From Phycisphaerales bacterium (GTDB lineage Bacteria > Planctomycetota > Phycisphaerae > Phycisphaerales > UBA1924): a DNA stretch of 44,971 bases. The notes beneath the pieces were generated by a model. That model saw nothing but the letters and a program-made list of their open reading frames with translations, did no database searches and was not told the DNA's origin. The first letter of the stretch is position 1, and each line of letters begins with the position of its first letter. The translations under genes and the position numbers were made by a program. The stretch is taken from positions 1 through 44,971 of the forward strand of contig JAJDDE010000209.1 in NCBI GenBank assembly GCA_029260475.1, given 5' to 3'. This document shows positions 16,112 through 41,760 of the stretch, piece after piece.

Positions 16112-17128
16112 TCAGTAACGGTCGTCAACGGTGATCGGGCGGATGACCCGGAGCGCGCGATTGCCGCGATGCTGACCGAGCTCGACCAGGAGCTTGGGCT
16201 CGCCCTCCACGTACATCACGCTGGGGGAAGCCACGTTCTTCTCCGTGGTGATGATGTCGCCCACGCTGAGCTCGACGAGGTCTCGCATCGTGATCGTGGT
16301 CTCCGCGAGGATCGCGCTGGTGTCCAGCGGGGCCTGGCGGAGCTGGCCCCGGATCGACTGCTCGTACCGCTCGCCCGTCTTGTTCTTCGGGGCGCTGAAC
16401 CAGCTCTGGGCCGCCAACGCGTCCATCAGCGGCTCGATCACCGCGTAGGGGATGCACAGGTTCATCGTGCCTGCCCGGTTGGACATACGCATCTCCAGCC
16501 CGACGACGACCACCACCTCGTTCGGCGGCACAATCTGCACCAACTGCGGGTTCGACTCCGAGCCCGAGAGCGCGAACGTCAGCTCCGCGACCGTCGCCCA
16601 CGCCTCCTGCAGCGAGTCGATGCAGCGATCGATCACCTTGGAGATGAGCCGGTTCTCGATCGCCGTCAGCGGGCGCTGCGGGATGAAGAGTTCCTGGTTC
16701 GTACCGCCCAGCAGGCGGTCGATGATCGGGTAGATGATCAGCGGCGAGATCTCGAAGCAGATCTGGCCCTCCAACGGCTCGGCGGAGAGCAGGTTGAAGC
16801 TCGTCGGGTTCGGCAGCCCCGCGATGAACTCCGAATAGGTCATCTGCTCGCAGCTCGAAAGCTTGACCTCCACGATCGTGCGCAGGAACGAGCTCAGCGA
16901 CGCGCCGGCGGCACGGGCGAACGTCTCGTGCAGCGTGTGGATCGCTCGCATCTGGTCCTTCGACACACGCTCCGGGCGTTTGAAGTCGTACGTCCGGACC
17001 TCGACGTTTTTGAGATCCTTGCGGCTGCGCGAGAAGATGGCCACGTCGTCGTGACGCTCCTCCACCTCACCCGAGTCCACCGCAGCCAGCAGGGCATCGA
17101 CTTCACTCTGGTCGAGGATGTCGTTCAT
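16112..17128 (-). CDS. fliM: Flagellar motor switch protein FliM
   Basis: A 338-residue component of the flagellar C-ring that binds phosphorylated CheY and sets rotation direction. The N-terminal peptide DILDQSEVDALLAAVDSGE is the CheY-binding segment, followed by the CheC-like middle domain (EQMTYSEFIAGLPNPTSF, IIDRLLGGTN) and a SpoA/FliN-like C-terminal domain (LVELSVGDIITTE, LVELGQHRGNRALRV). Length and order are normal. It stands without other flagellar genes; it shares the 195-bp region upstream with the divergent dsbD. It implies that the organism is or was flagellated. Confidence 0.96.
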   Translation of the reverse strand: MNDILDQSEVDALLAAVDSGEVEERHDDVAIFSRSRKDLKNVEVRTYDFKRPERVSKDQMRAIHTLHETFARAAGASLSSFLRTIVEVKLSSCEQMTYSEFIAGLPNPTSFNLLSAEPLEGQICFEISPLIIYPIIDRLLGGTNQELFIPQRPLTAIENRLISKVIDRCIDSLQEAWATVAELTFALSGSESNPQLVQIVPPNEVVVVVGLEMRMSNRAGTMNLCIPYAVIEPLMDALAAQSWFSAPKNKTGERYEQSIRGQLRQAPLDTSAILAETTITMRDLVELSVGDIITTEKNVASPSVMYVEGEPKLLVELGQHRGNRALRVIRPITVDDRY

Positions 17129-27926: not shown

Positions 27927-30900
27927 ATGCCCGAGACCGAACACCAGAGCCCGTCCCAGCACCAGTCCCAGGACGCCAAGACGCCCTTCCGCTACAACGC
28001 GCAGTTCGCTCAGACGATCGAGCGTGCGAGCCAGGAGCGGTGGGAGCAGTCGGCGGTCTTCGAGACCAAGAACCCCGGCGACGACGGCTTCGACGCCACC
28101 AAGCCCAAGTTCTACGCGATGGACATGTTCCCCTACCCGTCCGCAGCGGGTCTGCACGTCGGGCACCCGCTCGGGTACATCGCGACGGACATCGTCAGCC
28201 GCTACAAGCGCATGAAGGGTTTCAACGTCCTGCACCCGATGGGCTGGGACGCCTTCGGCCTGCCCGCCGAGCAGTACGCGATCAAGACGGGCGTCCACCC
28301 CGCGGAGACGACGTCCAAGGCGATCGACAACTTCCGGCGTCAGCTCAAGCGCTTCGGCTTCAGCTACGACTGGTCGCGCGAGGTCTCCACGATCGACCCG
28401 GGCTACTACAAGTGGACGCAGTGGATCTGGCTGCAGATGTACGGCGCGTACTACGACCGCGCGCAGAAGAAGGCACGCCCGATCGCGACGCTCGTCGAGG
28501 AGTTCGAACGCGACGAGGCGCGCAGCGGGTCCAAGGGCGAGGTGCTGCGGCGGGGCGACAAGGTGTGGGGCGGCGCGCGCCCGTGGGACAAGCTCACCGA
28601 TCGCGAGCGGCGCGACGTCATCGACGGCCTGCGCCTCGCGTACCTGGGCGAGCAGACGGTGAACTGGTGCCCCAAGCTCGGCACGGTGCTCGCCAACGAG
28701 GAGATCATCGACGGCAAGAGCGAACGTGGCGGGTTCCCCGTCGTCCGCAGGCCGATGCGCCAGTGGATGTTCCGCATCACCTCCTACGCCGATCGGCTGC
28801 TCGCGGGACTCGCGGACCTCGACTGGCCCGAGTCCACGCGCACCATGCAGCGCGAGTGGATCGGTCGCTCCGAGGGTGCCTACGCCGACTTCGCCTGCGG
28901 CAAACGACGCGTCCGGGTCTACACCACACGCCCCGACACCCTGTACGGCGCGACCTACATGGTGCTCGCGCCCGAGCACCCGCTCGTCGATGAGCTCATC
29001 CAGGAGAAGTACGGCGACTCCGCCCCGAAGTCGTGGAGGGCCCAGGGCTTCCCCGGTGCTCAGGAGCTCGTCGCGAAGGGAGCCTCGCCGCGCGAGGTCG
29101 CCGACGCCTACCGCGCGCACGTCGCGGGCCGGTCGGACGTCGATCGTCAGGAAGCCAAGGACAAGTCGGGCGTCTTCATCGGCGCGTACGCGATCAACCC
29201 CGCGACCGACGAACGCGTGCCCGTCTTCATCGCGGACTACGTGATGATGGGCTACGGCACCGGCGCGATCATGGCGGTCCCCGCCCACGACACCCGCGAC
29301 TTCGAGTTCGCCTCGCTCTTCGGGCTGCCCATCAAGGACGTGGTGTACTCGGGCACGCTCAACGCGATGAAGTACTTCTTCGACCACGTGACCGAGGGCG
29401 AGGCGCGTTCCGAGCGGTGGTTCTGGCTGCTCGCGGACCTACTGGGGATCGTGACGCCCGAGGGCGCCGAGCCCGTGTCGTACGCCGACGCCCTCGAGCG
29501 AGCGCGCAATACGCGCTCCATGCAGGTCGAGCCGCCCAAGGCGGACGTCGATGCCTCCACGCTCGAGAAGGATGTGCCGGGGATCATCGGTGAGCGGCGC
29601 GGCGTCGTCCGCATGCAGTGGATGGAGGCGATCGAGTCCATGGGCTTCGAGACCTTCCAGGAGGGCAAGGCCTGGTTCGACGAGGGCGTAGTGCACCAGA
29701 GCCGGGGCGAGGCGTACACGAGCGAAGGCTTCGCGGTAAACTCGGGTCCGCTCGACGGCATGCGCCAAGTCGAGGCGAAGACCACCGTCACGAAGCTGCT
29801 CGAACAGAAGAAGCTCGGCGAGCACGCGGTGCAGTTCCGCCTGCGCGATTGGTTGTTCAGCCGCCAACGCTACTGGGGTGAGCCCTTCCCGATCGTCTTC
29901 GACGAGGCGGGCGATCATCACGCGGTCGCCGATGACAGGCTGCCCGTCGAGTTGCCGGTGCTCGACGACTACACGCCCCCCGAGAGCGACGACCCCACGC
30001 CGCTGCTGGGCAAGGCGACCGACTGGGTGCGCACGACGGCGGGCGCTGCGGGCGTGACGGGCCTGCCCCCCGAGGCGATCGTCACGCGCGAGACCAACAC
30101 GATGCCCGGCTGGGCGGGCAGTTGCTGGTATTACCTGCGCTATATGGATCCGCAGAACCACGCGCGGATCACGGGCGAGGAGGCCGAGCGGTACTGGACC
30201 TCCGGCGGCGGTGTGGACCTGTACATCGGCGGTGCCGAGCACGCGGTGCTGCACCTGCTCTACGCACGGTTCTGGCACATGGCCCTCTTCGACCTCGGGC
30301 ACGTCTCGACGCCCGAGCCCTTCCAGAAGCTCTTCCACCAGGGGCTCATCACGAGCTTCGCGTACCAGCGCGCCGACAAGAGCCTCGTGCCCATCGACGA
30401 GGTCGAAGAGCGGGATGGCGCGTTCGTGGAAACCGCGACGGGCGAGGGTGTGACGCAGACGGTCGCGAAGATGTCCAAGACCCTGCGCAACGTCGTGAAC
30501 CCCGACGAGATGATCGCGGGCTACGGCGCCGACACCACGCGACTCTACGAGATGTACATGGGCCCGCTGGACCAGTCCAAGCCCTGGAACACCGACGATA
30601 TCAGCGGGATGTACCGCTTCCTGCAGCGTGTCTGGCGGCTCGTGGTGAGCGAGGAGTCGGGCGAGATGGTCCTGCGCGATACGCCCGACGAATCCACCGA
30701 GAAGATGCTGCACCGCACCGTCGCGAAGGTGGGCGACGACATCGAGCGTCTGGCGTTCAACACCGCGATCGCCGCGATGATCGAGCTCGTGAACCACGCC
30801 TCCAAGGCGGGCGGGTTCACCGCGGACCAAACGGAACGCTTCGCACGGATCCTGTCGCCCTTCGCGCCGCACCTGTGCGAGGAGCTGTGGTCGAAGCTCG

Positions 30901-37900: not shown

Positions 37901-39016
37901 TCAGTGCTCGTCGTACCACTTCAGAATCGTGCCCTCGCACGCCCCGCGGTAGAGCGTGCGCAGCGTGCTCTCGGGCAGCGCGTGCCCCGTGAGCGTTGGG
38001 GCGCTCATCTCGTCGTGCCGGTCCGGGTCGATCATGTGGAGGTCCGGGTCGGCGATGGGGGACTCGCCAGTGCGCCCGGTTTCGAGCATCGTGCGGTACG
38101 CGTAGTACCGGCTCGCGTAGAGGTCGAACGCCTCCTGGCGGCTCGACGCCTGCGTGCCCATATCGCGCGGCCCCGCCTCGTCCGTCAGGTGCTCGTCCAT
38201 CGTCACGATGTCCGAGCCGTAGAGCACGCGCCCCGCAAAGCGGTTGAGGAACCCGAGCAGTTCGTCCGTGGGGTGCTTGCTGAGCTCGCGGACCATCCAC
38301 TTGGTCGCGCTCGTGTCGATCACGAAGTTGGGATGGCGATCGAGGAAGCCGGAGAGAAACCCGAGGTCCTCGGGCCAGCCGCCCATGTGCGCGATGAGCC
38401 AGAGGCGCGGGTACTCCTCCCCCAAACGCTCTAACGCGTCGTACTGCTCGGCCTTGGTGCCGTACCACGCACTGTCGGTGTACTTCGATTCGAACCACGT
38501 GTCCGGGTCGGCGATGTGCACCATGAAGGCCATGTCGAGGCTGGCGGCGTGGTCCATCTGCTTGCGCCGCCAGGGGTGGTCGAGGGTGACGAGCTTCGGG
38601 TCCAGCCCGTGGTACTTCATCATGTCGCGACCGCGCGGGCCGCACCAGAACTTGAGCATGCGGGCGCCGAGCCCGTGCCAGGCGGTGATGTTGTCCATGT
38701 AGCCCTGGGTGTGGGCGTGGGCGGGGTCGTGTGAGGTGTATTCGGGGACCGCGACGAAGCGGATGCGCTCGCCCATCGCGTTCTTCACGCCCTCGGCCTG
38801 AGCGAGCTGGGTCTGGCTGAAGGTGAGCTCGACGCCGTAGAGGTCGCAGACCTCGCGGTAGAGCGTGGCGGCCTCCGCCCCGTTGATGTGGGCGTGCGCG
38901 TCGATAATCGGCACCACGGGCGGGCCCAGCCGCTGGGCCTCGGCTCGGTAGTCGAGCCCGAAACGGTTGGCAGCAGTGGCGGGACAAGACCCCGCGGACG
39001 TCTCGGTGGTGCTCAT
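37901..39016 (-). CDS. Amidohydrolase family 2 (TIM-barrel) metal-dependent hydrolase
   Basis: A 371-residue amidohydrolase-superfamily protein of the amidohydrolase 2 (ACMSD-like) group. IIDAHAHING gives the metal-binding H-x-H at the end of strand 1, FMVHIADPDTWF and LIAHMGGWPED the further histidines, and VLYGSDIV the catalytic Asp at strand 8. The family decarboxylates or hydrolyses small carboxylic or lactone compounds, so the substrate is open. The start at 39016 was preferred over the longer frame to 39091, whose leader looks noncoding. It converges on the lipoprotein gene. It is divergent from mraZ, sharing an upstream region of about 220 bases. Confidence 0.85.
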   Translation of the reverse strand: MSTTETSAGSCPATAANRFGLDYRAEAQRLGPPVVPIIDAHAHINGAEAATLYREVCDLYGVELTFSQTQLAQAEGVKNAMGERIRFVAVPEYTSHDPAHAHTQGYMDNITAWHGLGARMLKFWCGPRGRDMMKYHGLDPKLVTLDHPWRRKQMDHAASLDMAFMVHIADPDTWFESKYTDSAWYGTKAEQYDALERLGEEYPRLWLIAHMGGWPEDLGFLSGFLDRHPNFVIDTSATKWMVRELSKHPTDELLGFLNRFAGRVLYGSDIVTMDEHLTDEAGPRDMGTQASSRQEAFDLYASRYYAYRTMLETGRTGESPIADPDLHMIDPDRHDEMSAPTLTGHALPESTLRTLYRGACEGTILKWYDEH

Positions 39017-39134
39017 GGGCCAATCGTAGGGACGATGAGCCCGCACGCCCCTACAGCACCCGTGGACCCCCCCGGACCATGCGTTGGGCAACGGTGCAGG
39101 CCATCACCCCCGCAACCGGTGAATTCGCACGGGT

Positions 39135-39208
39135 GTGGGTGGCGTGGGGCAAGATTCGGGCGAAATGTGTCGAAGTGTGTTGCGGAGTGGGGCATCGTGT
39201 CGTACGCT
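39135..39208 (+). promoter_or_regulatory. mraZ promoter with 10-bp-spaced MraZ-type operator boxes
   Basis: Four GTGK boxes lie exactly 10 bases apart: GTGT at 39167, GTGT at 39177, GTGG at 39187 and GTGT at 39197. Two more GTGG boxes stand at 39135 and 39144, with a 9-base offset. Known MraZ proteins bind tandem direct repeats (TGGGN or GTGG-type in E. coli, AAAGTGT in Mycoplasma) with a 10-bp period upstream of their own gene. A promoter, TTGCGG (39180-39185) and TACGCT (39203-39208) with 17-base spacing, overlaps boxes 3 and 4, as expected for autorepression. Confidence 0.65.
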
Positions 39209-39239
39209 GCTCTCCGAACCACTGGACGGAGCCTCATGC

Positions 39240-39698
39240 GTGCTTTTTACCGGGCAATACGAACATTCGATCGACGCGAAGGGTCGCCTCGCGGTGCCGG
39301 CGGATATCCGTCAGCGCTGGGACTCGACGCGCGACGGGGCGGCCTGGTTCGCGGTCCCCTGGATCGGTGGGCTCGTGCGGCTCTACACGGAGACCAGCTT
39401 CGTGAGCAGGGCGGAAGGACTGGGAGGCTCGCTGCTCCCGGACGAGGACGAAGCGGAGCTGCAAGCCACCTTCTTCGGCCTCGCGGAGCGGATCGAGCCG
39501 GACAGCGCCGGGCGTATCCGCATGCCGGACTCGATGCGGGAGATGGCGGGGCTCGGCACGGAGGTCGTCCTCGTCGGAGCGGGGGATCGGCTTGAAGTGC
39601 GGGACCGTCGGGATTGGGAACAGAGCAAGAAGGACCGGCTGGCCCAACTGCCGGACCTGATGAAGCGGATCAGCGCCAAGAAGCGCGCCGAGGGATGA
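39240..39698 (+). CDS. mraZ: Transcriptional regulator MraZ
   Basis: A 152-residue MraZ protein, made of two AbrB-like swapped-hairpin domains that assemble into a ring and bind tandem repeats upstream of their own gene. Domain 1 holds LFTGQYEHSIDAKGRLAVPA, domain 2 ERIEPDSAGRIRMPDSMREM followed by AGLGTEVVLVGAGDRLEVRD. The GTG at 39240 begins the conserved part and has CGGAG eight bases upstream; the ATG at 39236 is out of frame. The usual downstream partner rsmH (mraW) and the division cluster are absent, so mraZ is an orphan here. A noncoding hairpin-rich stretch follows. Confidence 0.93.
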   Translation: MLFTGQYEHSIDAKGRLAVPADIRQRWDSTRDGAAWFAVPWIGGLVRLYTETSFVSRAEGLGGSLLPDEDEAELQATFFGLAERIEPDSAGRIRMPDSMREMAGLGTEVVLVGAGDRLEVRDRRDWEQSKKDRLAQLPDLMKRISAKKRAEG

Positions 39699-39712
39699 GA
39701 GAGGGAGCCGCG

Positions 39713-40098
39713 CGTCACCCTAGCGGGTGACGAATGCGGATGACGCCGAGCACGGATCGCTCGGCAGACAAGTGGAGCGGCGGCGCAAGGATGCGTCGCC
39801 CCGATCGAGCCCCCAAGGCATCTGAGCGCAAGGACGCGCTCGCCGGCTCCTTCTTCTCGTCACGGAGAGAAGGGCCACCGCCACGGACGGGACCAGTTCG
39901 ATCAACGCTCTGACACAGAGCGCCCCGCGCCGCCCGAACGCGCCGCGTGGCATTTCCCCGTCCGCTCCCCGCACCCGTGCGGGGGCGGCTTCTGAACCAC
40001 CACCCTCTGCGGCGATCGTCCACCACCACCACCTTTCCACCACATCGACGCCGTAGACCACCGCGGCCTCCCGTCACTGGGAGGCCGCTGTTGTTTTT
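39713..40098 (+). ncRNA. Candidate CsrA-sequestering small RNA (CsrB/RsmZ-like)
   Basis: No convincing gene lies between the mraZ stop and the terminator. Instead there is a row of stem-loops: 39713-39732 (8 bp), 39745-39765 (7 bp, loop ACGGATC), 39779-39800 (9 bp with one G-U, loop AGGA inside CAAGGATG), 39824-39841 (6 bp, loop AAGGAC), about 39853-39872 (6 bp, loop GTCACGGA), 39906-39922 (7 bp), 39962-39988 (11 bp with one bulge) and the terminator. ANGGA occurs five times (39752, 39787, 39830, 39862, 39883), four of them in loops. CsrA/RsmA binds ANGGA in hairpin loops, with CARGGAUG as the core of the selected consensus, so a CsrA sponge is inferred. No promoter is clear; the RNA could be cut from the mraZ transcript. 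Confidence 0.5.
40063..40098 (+). terminator. Strong intrinsic terminator downstream of the candidate small RNA
   Basis: A perfect 10-bp stem (40063-40072 with 40079-40088) closes a six-base loop GTCACT and is followed by TGTTGTTTTT (40089-40098). It acts on the plus strand; the minus strand has no T tract next to the stem. It lies about 365 bases after the mraZ stop, which implies a transcript that crosses the whole hairpin region. Confidence 0.85.
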
Positions 40099-40108
40099 GG
40101 GACCGATT

Positions 40109-40242
40109 CTGGGTGGCCGGGAACAGCCGCTCTGGGCTGCTCCCGGGTTCGGCATCGTTGGGGCTTGTGCGGGCTTTCGTGTTTCGCGGGTGCGAGATCG
40201 GACATCCCCGGGAGCGGCGAAGCGCCGTTCCCTGCCACCCAG
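40109..40242. repeat. REPIN-like inverted doublet of palindromes
   Basis: The left arm (40109-40147) and the right arm (40207-40242, read on the other strand) share CTGGGTGGC, GGGAAC and GCTCCCGGG in the same order with few differences. Each arm is itself a hairpin: left CCGGGA-x-CAGCC / GGCTG-x-TCCCGG, right 10 bp around AAG. Two inverted palindromes separated by a 59-base spacer is the form of a REPIN, the mobile doublet of REP sequences. A 12-base direct repeat (CGCTGTTGTTTT) stands at 40086 and 40243 around it. A structured RNA is the alternative reading. Confidence 0.55.
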
Positions 40243-40252
40243 CGCTGTTGTT

Positions 40253-40642
40253 TTAGTCGTCTGCGAGTTGTGACAACTTGTCTAGGACAGCCGTGGTCAC
40301 TGTCGAGTTGTCGAGGCGATCTTTGTGGAAACGCCTGTCCCATATGATGAGGCAATGGACGATCGTCGCCTCAGTCTCGGGGTGCTCTCGATCAGGGCCA
40401 ATGAGGAACGTCGATGCGTAATCGCCGACTTCATCCGTACACACAATGGAAATCAACCAAGGAGCTTCTTCGTTGATCCGCTTCGCGTCTTTGAGACGTT
40501 CCCGGACCGAACCCTCGAAGAGCTTTGGGTCAATCGTGTGAGGATTCTCAAGCGCTACCGGATGTGCGGAGACGATTAGATCAACTAGCTCGCCTCGCGT
40601 GAGGCTGGTGATTCGGAACCGCTTGAGGTCGAGCCCGCCCAT
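40253..40642 (-). CDS. Hypothetical protein at the end of the serine operon
   Basis: I do not recognise this 129-residue protein. It has a plausible globular make-up: LKRFRITSLTRGELVDLIVS, then PKLFEGSVRERLKDAKRI, WLISIVCTDEVGDYASTFLI and an end DKLSQLADD. It has no signal peptide or membrane segment. The start at 40642 follows the serC stop by two bases, which supports co-transcription. Its base composition is less GC-rich than serC, which suggests later acquisition. Its stop codon overlaps the right direct repeat of the REPIN-like element. A plus-strand frame inside it (40325-40579) is less convincing. Confidence 0.6.
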   Translation of the reverse strand: MGGLDLKRFRITSLTRGELVDLIVSAHPVALENPHTIDPKLFEGSVRERLKDAKRINEEAPWLISIVCTDEVGDYASTFLIGPDREHPETEATIVHCLIIWDRRFHKDRLDNSTVTTAVLDKLSQLADD

Positions 40643-40644
40643 CG

Positions 40645-41760
40645 TTACCCGTTCTTCGACGCGAAGTCCTTCATGAACCCCACGAGCGCCTCGACGGCCT
40701 CCTTGGGCACCGCGTTGTAGAGCGAGGCGCGCATGCCGCCCGCGTCGCGGTGGCCCTTGAGGTTCGCCAGCCCCTGGGCCTCGGCCTGGTTCACGAAGTC
40801 GCCCTCGAGATCATGGTTCGCGCAGCGGAAGCAGACATTCATGTTGCTGCGGCTGCCCTCGGCGACGTTGGCGGTGTAGAAGCTCGAATCGTCCAGGAAG
40901 TCGTAGAGCACCGCCGCCTTCTCGGCGTTGCGTTGCCCCATCACCTTGAGCCCGCCCTCCTTCTCGATCCACTCGAAGACCTTGCCCATCAGGTAGATCG
41001 CGAACGTGTTGGGCGTGTTCGGGCGGCTGCCCTGCTCCATCATCACGTCGTACCGCATGAGCGTGGGCGTGTTCTCGCGGTGCTTGCCGACGAGGTCCTT
41101 CCGCACGATCACGAGCGCGCAGCCCGCGGGGCCCAGGTTCTTCTGGGCGCCGGCGTAGATGAGCCCGTACTTGGAGACGTCGATCGGGCGCGAATAGATG
41201 TTGCTCGACGCGTCGGAGACCAGGGGCGAGGGGGCGTCGGGGAGTGTCGTGAACTCGGTGCCGAAGATGGTGTTGTTCTCGGTGAAGTGGCAGTACGCCG
41301 CGTCTTTGCAGAGGTCGAAGGTGTCCTGCGCGGGGATGTAGCTGAAGTTCTTGTCCTCGCTTGAGGCCGAGACGTGGACCTCGCCGTACATCTTGGCTTC
41401 CTTGATGGACTTCTTGCTCCAGGCGCCGGTGTTGATGTAGTCCGCGTGCCCGCCGACGGGCAGCAGGTTCGCGGGCACCATCGCGTTCTGGAGCGTCGCG
41501 CCGCCCTGGACGAAGAGCACCGCGTAGTCGTCGGAGATGTTGCCGATGCGCCGGCAGGCGGCCTCGGCCTCGTCGATCACGCGGTCGAAGACCTTGCCCC
41601 GGTGCGAGTGCTCGAGGATGCCGATGCCCGAGGCGTCGATGTTCCAGAGGTCCGCGCGGGCCTGGTTGAGCACGTCGTCGGGGAGGCAGGCGGGGCCCGC
41701 GGAGAAGTTGAAGATCCGGGCCGTGCCGGTCGCGGTGTTAGCAGTATTGACAGCGCTCAT
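40645..41760 (-). CDS. serC: Phosphoserine aminotransferase
   Basis: A 371-residue PLP enzyme that converts 3-phosphohydroxypyruvate and glutamate to phosphoserine, the second step of serine synthesis. FNFSAGPACLPDDVLNQA, GIGILEHSHRGKVF, VLFVQGGATLQNAMVPANL, the PLP lysine in YAGAQKNLGPAG, and HRDAGGMRASLYNAV at the end are diagnostic. The length is normal. The ATG at 41760 overlaps the serA stop by 4 bp. It lies between serA and an unknown small gene in the same operon. The enzyme is cytosolic and should also serve pyridoxal synthesis together with pdxJ. Confidence 0.97.
   Translation of the reverse strand: MSAVNTANTATGTARIFNFSAGPACLPDDVLNQARADLWNIDASGIGILEHSHRGKVFDRVIDEAEAACRRIGNISDDYAVLFVQGGATLQNAMVPANLLPVGGHADYINTGAWSKKSIKEAKMYGEVHVSASSEDKNFSYIPAQDTFDLCKDAAYCHFTENNTIFGTEFTTLPDAPSPLVSDASSNIYSRPIDVSKYGLIYAGAQKNLGPAGCALVIVRKDLVGKHRENTPTLMRYDVMMEQGSRPNTPNTFAIYLMGKVFEWIEKEGGLKVMGQRNAEKAAVLYDFLDDSSFYTANVAEGSRSNMNVCFRCANHDLEGDFVNQAEAQGLANLKGHRDAGGMRASLYNAVPKEAVEALVGFMKDFASKNG

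Follow-up and report, generated by a model that had tools for sequence, protein, structure and literature searches.

Positions 39699-40098 of the DNA analyzed here (a stretch of 44,971 nucleotides from a Phycisphaerales bacterium, hereafter the window) contain a tandem array of hairpins behind mraZ, which we read, with a probability of roughly 0.7, as the untranslated 3' part of the mraZ transcript, or as a small RNA released from it, that acts as a CsrA sponge. This reading draws on the conservation of a motif and its hairpins, their strand specificity and stem covariation, the co-occurrence of csrA and a matching hairpin on flagellin mRNAs. Dozens of relatives carry such an array, unannotated, behind mraZ and would probably likewise make a CsrA sponge RNA.

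The hairpin array and its probable transcription unit

The initial annotation had proposed a CsrA-binding RNA with five ANGGA motifs within 39752-39887, and its description of the motifs proved accurate. The five lie at 39752, 39787, 39830, 39862 and 39883, and all but the last are in hairpin loops. The site given as 39786 does carry the core of the selected CsrA consensus (CAAGGATG, in the 39787 hairpin), the 39830 site does form the hexaloop AAGGAC, and no ANGGA follows in the next 170 bases, or anywhere further on within the 500 bases examined past mraZ. A sixth ANGGA, at 39702, was outside the original count. The features of the locus are listed in Table 1.

Table 1. Features of the mraZ locus and the array behind it; CsrA-site hairpins are predictions
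Feature	Position	Strand	Details	Basis
MraZ-box-like promoter repeats	39163..39193	+	GTG at 39167, 39177 and 39187 (10-bp period)	sequence
mraZ	39240..39698	+	GTG start	Pfam MraZ, 2.4e-18
Hairpin without GGA	39713..39732	+	8 bp, loop UAGC	sequence and fold
CsrA-site hairpin A (predicted)	39745..39765	+	7-bp stem, heptaloop ACGGAUC	sequence and fold
CsrA-site hairpin B (predicted)	39779..39800	+	8-bp stem, hexaloop AAGGAU, CAAGGAUG core	sequence and fold
CsrA-site hairpin C (predicted)	39823..39842	+	7-bp stem, hexaloop AAGGAC	sequence and fold
CsrA-site hairpin D (predicted)	39851..39874	+	8-bp stem, octaloop GUCACGGA	sequence and base-pair scan
Fifth ANGGA	39883..39887	+	ACGGA, outside any good loop	
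CACCACC tracts	39997..40034	+		recurrent in relatives
Intrinsic terminator	40063..40098	+	11-pair stem (40063-40088) and T tract	terminator scan

The further claim that the clustering is not a simple effect of composition was assessed against 5000 dinucleotide shuffles of 39699-40098, and it holds. The region contains 6 ANGGA and 4 loop sites, as compared to shuffle means of 1.3 and 0.07, respectively; 6 ANGGA were reached in 7/5000 shuffles and 4 loop sites in 0/5000. The RNA from 39690 to 40098 (409 nt) showed a folding z of -7.5 relative to shuffles. A coding reading of the region was rejected, as the overlapping ORFs on both strands are without a Pfam match; a tRNA or tmRNA identity was also rejected, none having been found there.

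The intrinsic terminator that had been placed at the end of the array was recovered (Table 1) and is likely the 3' end of the RNA. Among family genomes, a simple scan detected a terminator behind mraZ in 23/36. CACCACC tracts were found behind mraZ on the sense strand of 20/39 family genomes and on the opposite strand of none (approx. 3 expected), and may represent a further functional module of the RNA. These tracts often take the form CACCACC-CGGCGGCGGGG-CCACCACCACC and lie between the hairpin array and the last terminator (e.g., in L037, L042, L046, L032 and L039). Directly past the terminator of the window, a large inverted repeat (CTGGGTGGCCGGGAACAGC ... GTTCCCTGCCACCCAG) occupies 40104-40247; it was flagged by a sub-threshold microRNA model alone.

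Probably, mraZ is the first gene of the transcript. Its description as an orphan agrees with the location of rsmH, which sits on a different contig. No sigma-70-like promoter was seen from 38500 to 41500, and co-transcription with mraZ is thus the simplest reading. A GacA/UvrY box (TGTAAG-N6-CTTACA) is absent near the array, the sole match in the window (at 28942) being at chance level. The GTG repeats ahead of mraZ are, we presume from MraZ autoregulation, MraZ boxes. In the mraZ upstream regions of 39 family genomes, we counted 69 GTG pairs at 10-bp spacing, present in 32 genomes, as compared to 0-15 pairs at each spacing of 5-9 and 11-19 bp and 35 pairs at 20 bp.

Loop register and stem covariation in relatives

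Orthologues of mraZ were found in 59/61 genomes searched. BLAST of the array DNA against 40 relatives returned short chance matches only; the signal becomes visible only after anchoring on mraZ. This DNA is not conserved, but its architecture recurs behind mraZ throughout the order. Behind each mraZ, several ANGGA stand between complementary arms in unalignable sequence. Overall, the GGA is kept in the loops of relatives, a point on which the initial annotation had made its proposal depend, as indicated by hexaloop, pairing and loop-site counts behind mraZ.

ANGGAN hexaloops closed by 4 bp or more numbered 52 on the sense strand behind mraZ, in 30 genomes, as compared to 0 on the opposite strand and a mean of 1.2 (maximum 5) in shuffles. 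No such hairpins occurred further downstream on the sense strand of the same relatives. Three sense-strand hexaloops were found in the 350 bases upstream of mraZ and six in the mraZ coding sequence, i.e., at rates per kb more than 10 times lower than behind mraZ.

Two or more loop sites behind mraZ were present in 26/39 f1, 6/6 f2, 3/3 f63 and 7/9 f68 genomes, in 0/9 genomes outside the class and on the minus strand in none throughout; in the genome background, which comprised 800 kb of one relative (G210) and the window, 0.2% of 400-base windows reached this number. Across both strands of the 800 kb from G210, the top ANGGA-hairpin cluster is the one behind mraZ (at C2:293650, with the mraZ match ending at 293562). 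Secondary clusters in this genome, at C2:65800 and C1:531, were dismissed as scattered ANGGA with no comparable array. Many of the relatives' genomes are fragmented assemblies, and arrays are weak in several family members (L100, L109 and L115).

The covariation analysis of mraZ 3' regions that had been suggested initially used all 168 ANGGA within 350 bases of mraZ from 39 genera of the window's family, unselected for stems. Arms were complementary at a loop length of six only. Pairing beside the six-base loop was 73/76/67/57/56%, as compared to 46/44/43/38/40% after shuffling, and 0 of 1000 shuffles matched the observed pairing; loop lengths of 4, 5, 7, 8 or 9 gave no comparable pairing run at these sites. 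Hairpins with at least 4 pairs numbered 70, their sequences were all distinct (70/70), and G-C, A-U and G-U pairs all appeared at their stem positions, each in either orientation.

As a mixed-genera MAFFT alignment was uninformative, within-genus alignments were used instead. Within one genus (f4), the orthologous hairpin holds the loop UCAGAAGGAGA while the stem varies on both sides, with the compensatory arms CGCCGCCG/CGGCGGCG, CGCCGCUG/CAGCGGCG and CGUCGUUG/CAACGACG. The genus g23 hairpin GGGGCUC-ANGGA-(C/U)-GAGCCCC has A, G, C and T at the N position in four species, which corresponds to the tolerance known for CsrA/RsmE-bound loops, i.e., ANGGAN (PMC7652899). The array thereby illustrates how Csr sponges with an unrecognisable primary sequence can be found from the loop register and covarying stems alone.

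CsrA, FliW and the flagellin leader

CsrA was detected in 61/61 genomes and FliW in 60/61, the source genome included. The search for csrA in the source genome, which had been named as a check on the proposal, returned two copies, and the flagellar gene fliM reported for the window was located at 16112-17128. The first copy, csrA1 (116 aa), is closely flanked by fliW upstream and flagellin downstream, and aligns to Bacillus/Geobacillus-type CsrA, including part of the C-terminal extension, the part of CsrA that binds FliW (PMC7652899). The second, csrA2 (68 aa), is located after a nifU-like gene. Both CsrA copies align to solved CsrA chains across the RNA-binding region.

The same type of hairpin occurs in flagellin leaders. 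At 15/21 flagellin loci, an ANGGAN hexaloop closed by a stem of 4-7 bp contains the ribosome-binding site, and four more of the 21 have an ANGGAN hairpin just upstream of the ribosome-binding site. In the source genome, this leader hairpin reads CCAAUC-ACGGAG-GAUUGG. The hairpin at the flagellin ribosome-binding site is, from its sequence, a likely CsrA target site. Flagellin leaders with ANGGAN hairpins were seen across the order (L001 1840-2010 and L202-L221).

We hypothesize a strict link between the array and csrA2, for which the genomes speak on both sides. In 6/6 sampled genomes of the sister family f2, a convergent csrA2 (74-85% identical to that of the source genome) lies just beyond mraZ and the array, and the family member G021, which is without fliW and csrA1, has a single csrA2-like csrA and keeps the array, making it a natural test case. 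On the other hand, f5 genomes, in which the array is sometimes kept, are mostly without csrA2. The class genomes without detectable csrA are two from f69 (G251 and G257), which have no loop sites, and one from f68 (G330), which keeps some.

Known Csr/Rsm RNAs and probable mode of action

The label "CsrB/RsmZ-type" given to the array initially is apt as an analogy, the ANGGAN hexaloops being RsmZ-like, and fails as membership in an Rfam Csr/Rsm family. No Rfam family reached its cut-off over the array, and neither TwoAYGGAY nor Bacillaceae-1 had a match in these loci. The top Csr/Rsm match was RsmW (RF02809), which covers hairpins B-D with 28.2 bits against a cut-off of 52, with no evidence for common descent. 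Several GGA loops in one RNA, the ANGGAN hexaloop, csrA in the genome and a non-coding RNA with a terminator are traits shared with the sponge class. Similarity to the CsrB/RsmX/Y/Z/W families of Rfam and a GacA/UvrY-controlled promoter are lacking, and FliW is present, its absence being a reported correlate of sponge RNAs and not a strict definition (PMC7366521, PMC4682653). RsmZ, RsmY and RsmX of Pseudomonas likewise are non-coding RNAs with tandem ANGGAN hexaloop hairpins and an intrinsic terminator in genomes with CsrA; unlike them, the array is planctomycete, attached to mraZ, without a GacA box or Rfam match above cut-off, and accompanied by FliW.

With E. coli CsrB and CsrC, the array shares the idea of a multi-site CsrA-binding RNA. 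The 22 GGA of CsrB are for the most part CAGGA, and our strict ANGGA-loop rule, which is simple and tuned to RsmZ-like loops, found no site in this positive control; the rule was therefore calibrated on the flagellin leaders of the same lineage. TwoAYGGAY and Bacillaceae-1 RNAs, one or both from outside Gammaproteobacteria, are also CsrA binders predicted from motif matches (PMC4333381), but these are two-site motifs of Firmicutes without a link to mraZ. UpsM of Rhodobacter is also a small RNA from an mraZ transcription unit; however, it is the 5' leader of mraZ, and the abstract on it does not describe a CsrA sponge (PMC5089854).

Experimental identification of Csr sponges is confined to Gammaproteobacteria, and Clostridia and Bacilli have yielded predictions from motif matches (PMC4333381). 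No report of a Csr sponge in Planctomycetota was found in the literature searched, which came mostly from journals other than subscription ones. FliW and small RNA antagonists of CsrA have been called mutually exclusive in a review (PMC7366521), and Planctomycetes have been listed with those in which FliW may serve this role (PMC4682653). This split between FliW and small RNAs (PMC4333381, PMC4682653, PMC7366521) is contradicted by the sponge-like array, which covaries and is family-wide in planctomycetes that have FliW. In its presumed working the array is RsmZ-like, and it lies outside the known sequence families and GacA control.

The main rival to a sponge is a cis-acting, CsrA-binding 3' UTR that would control mraZ mRNA stability or termination (ancestrally that of an mraZ-rsmH operon) with little effect on free CsrA. 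Such an element would fit the first ANGGA, which mostly lies within approx. 100 nt of the mraZ stop, and the ANGGA hairpins found in other orders between mraZ and an apparent rsmH. Among the latter is the hairpin GGCGCC-AUGGAA-GGCGCC at the end of the mraZ-rsmH gap of L125 (f68), which encloses the apparent rsmH start codon and suggests that CsrA may ancestrally have controlled the mraZ-rsmH operon. In some other orders (f8 and f9), a small ORF separates mraZ from the apparent rsmH, and some of the ANGGA at these loci lie in coding sequence. Control in cis normally calls for one or two sites close to a ribosome-binding site, however, and the family has several loop sites although no same-strand gene lies behind mraZ in the window to be controlled; we thus regard this explanation as unlikely.

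Recognition of the array by a GGA-binding factor other than CsrA is still less probable. While the lack of sequence homology to known Csr/Rsm RNAs would allow for such a factor, the exact ANGGAN hexaloop is the loop of RsmE/CsrA (PMC7652899), the flagellin ribosome-binding sites of these genomes carry the same hairpin, and csrA co-occurs with the array, next to it in f2. Functionless hairpins due to chance or composition have a negligible probability, as folding comes easily to GC-rich sequence but the array is absent from dinucleotide shuffles, the minus strand, neighbouring regions and the 800-kb background, i.e., this explanation is statistically refuted.

Acting as a sponge, the array would offer the ANGGA loops of its tandem hairpins to CsrA dimers and would draw CsrA off mRNAs such as flagellin, with its ribosome-binding site in the same type of hairpin. 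As the family's mraZ promoters carry MraZ-box-like repeats, the sponge level would probably be set by MraZ autoregulation. We infer transcription of the array, CsrA binding, titration in trans and control by MraZ. Four loop sites are few beside CsrB, and this count and the weak arrays of some family members speak against a sponge.

MraZ is a transcription factor whose gene is widely kept and whose purpose is puzzling, and the array gives mraZ a testable job. It is conceivable, with the odds somewhat against it, that Phycisphaerae have two CsrA antagonists, i.e., FliW for the flagellar CsrA1 and the mraZ-linked sponge for the short CsrA2, with MraZ as a switch through which the Csr network would be tied to the state of growth or division. 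An unusual expansion of csrA was observed in f26 genomes (e.g., G095 and G111), which have 8-17 csrA genes each.
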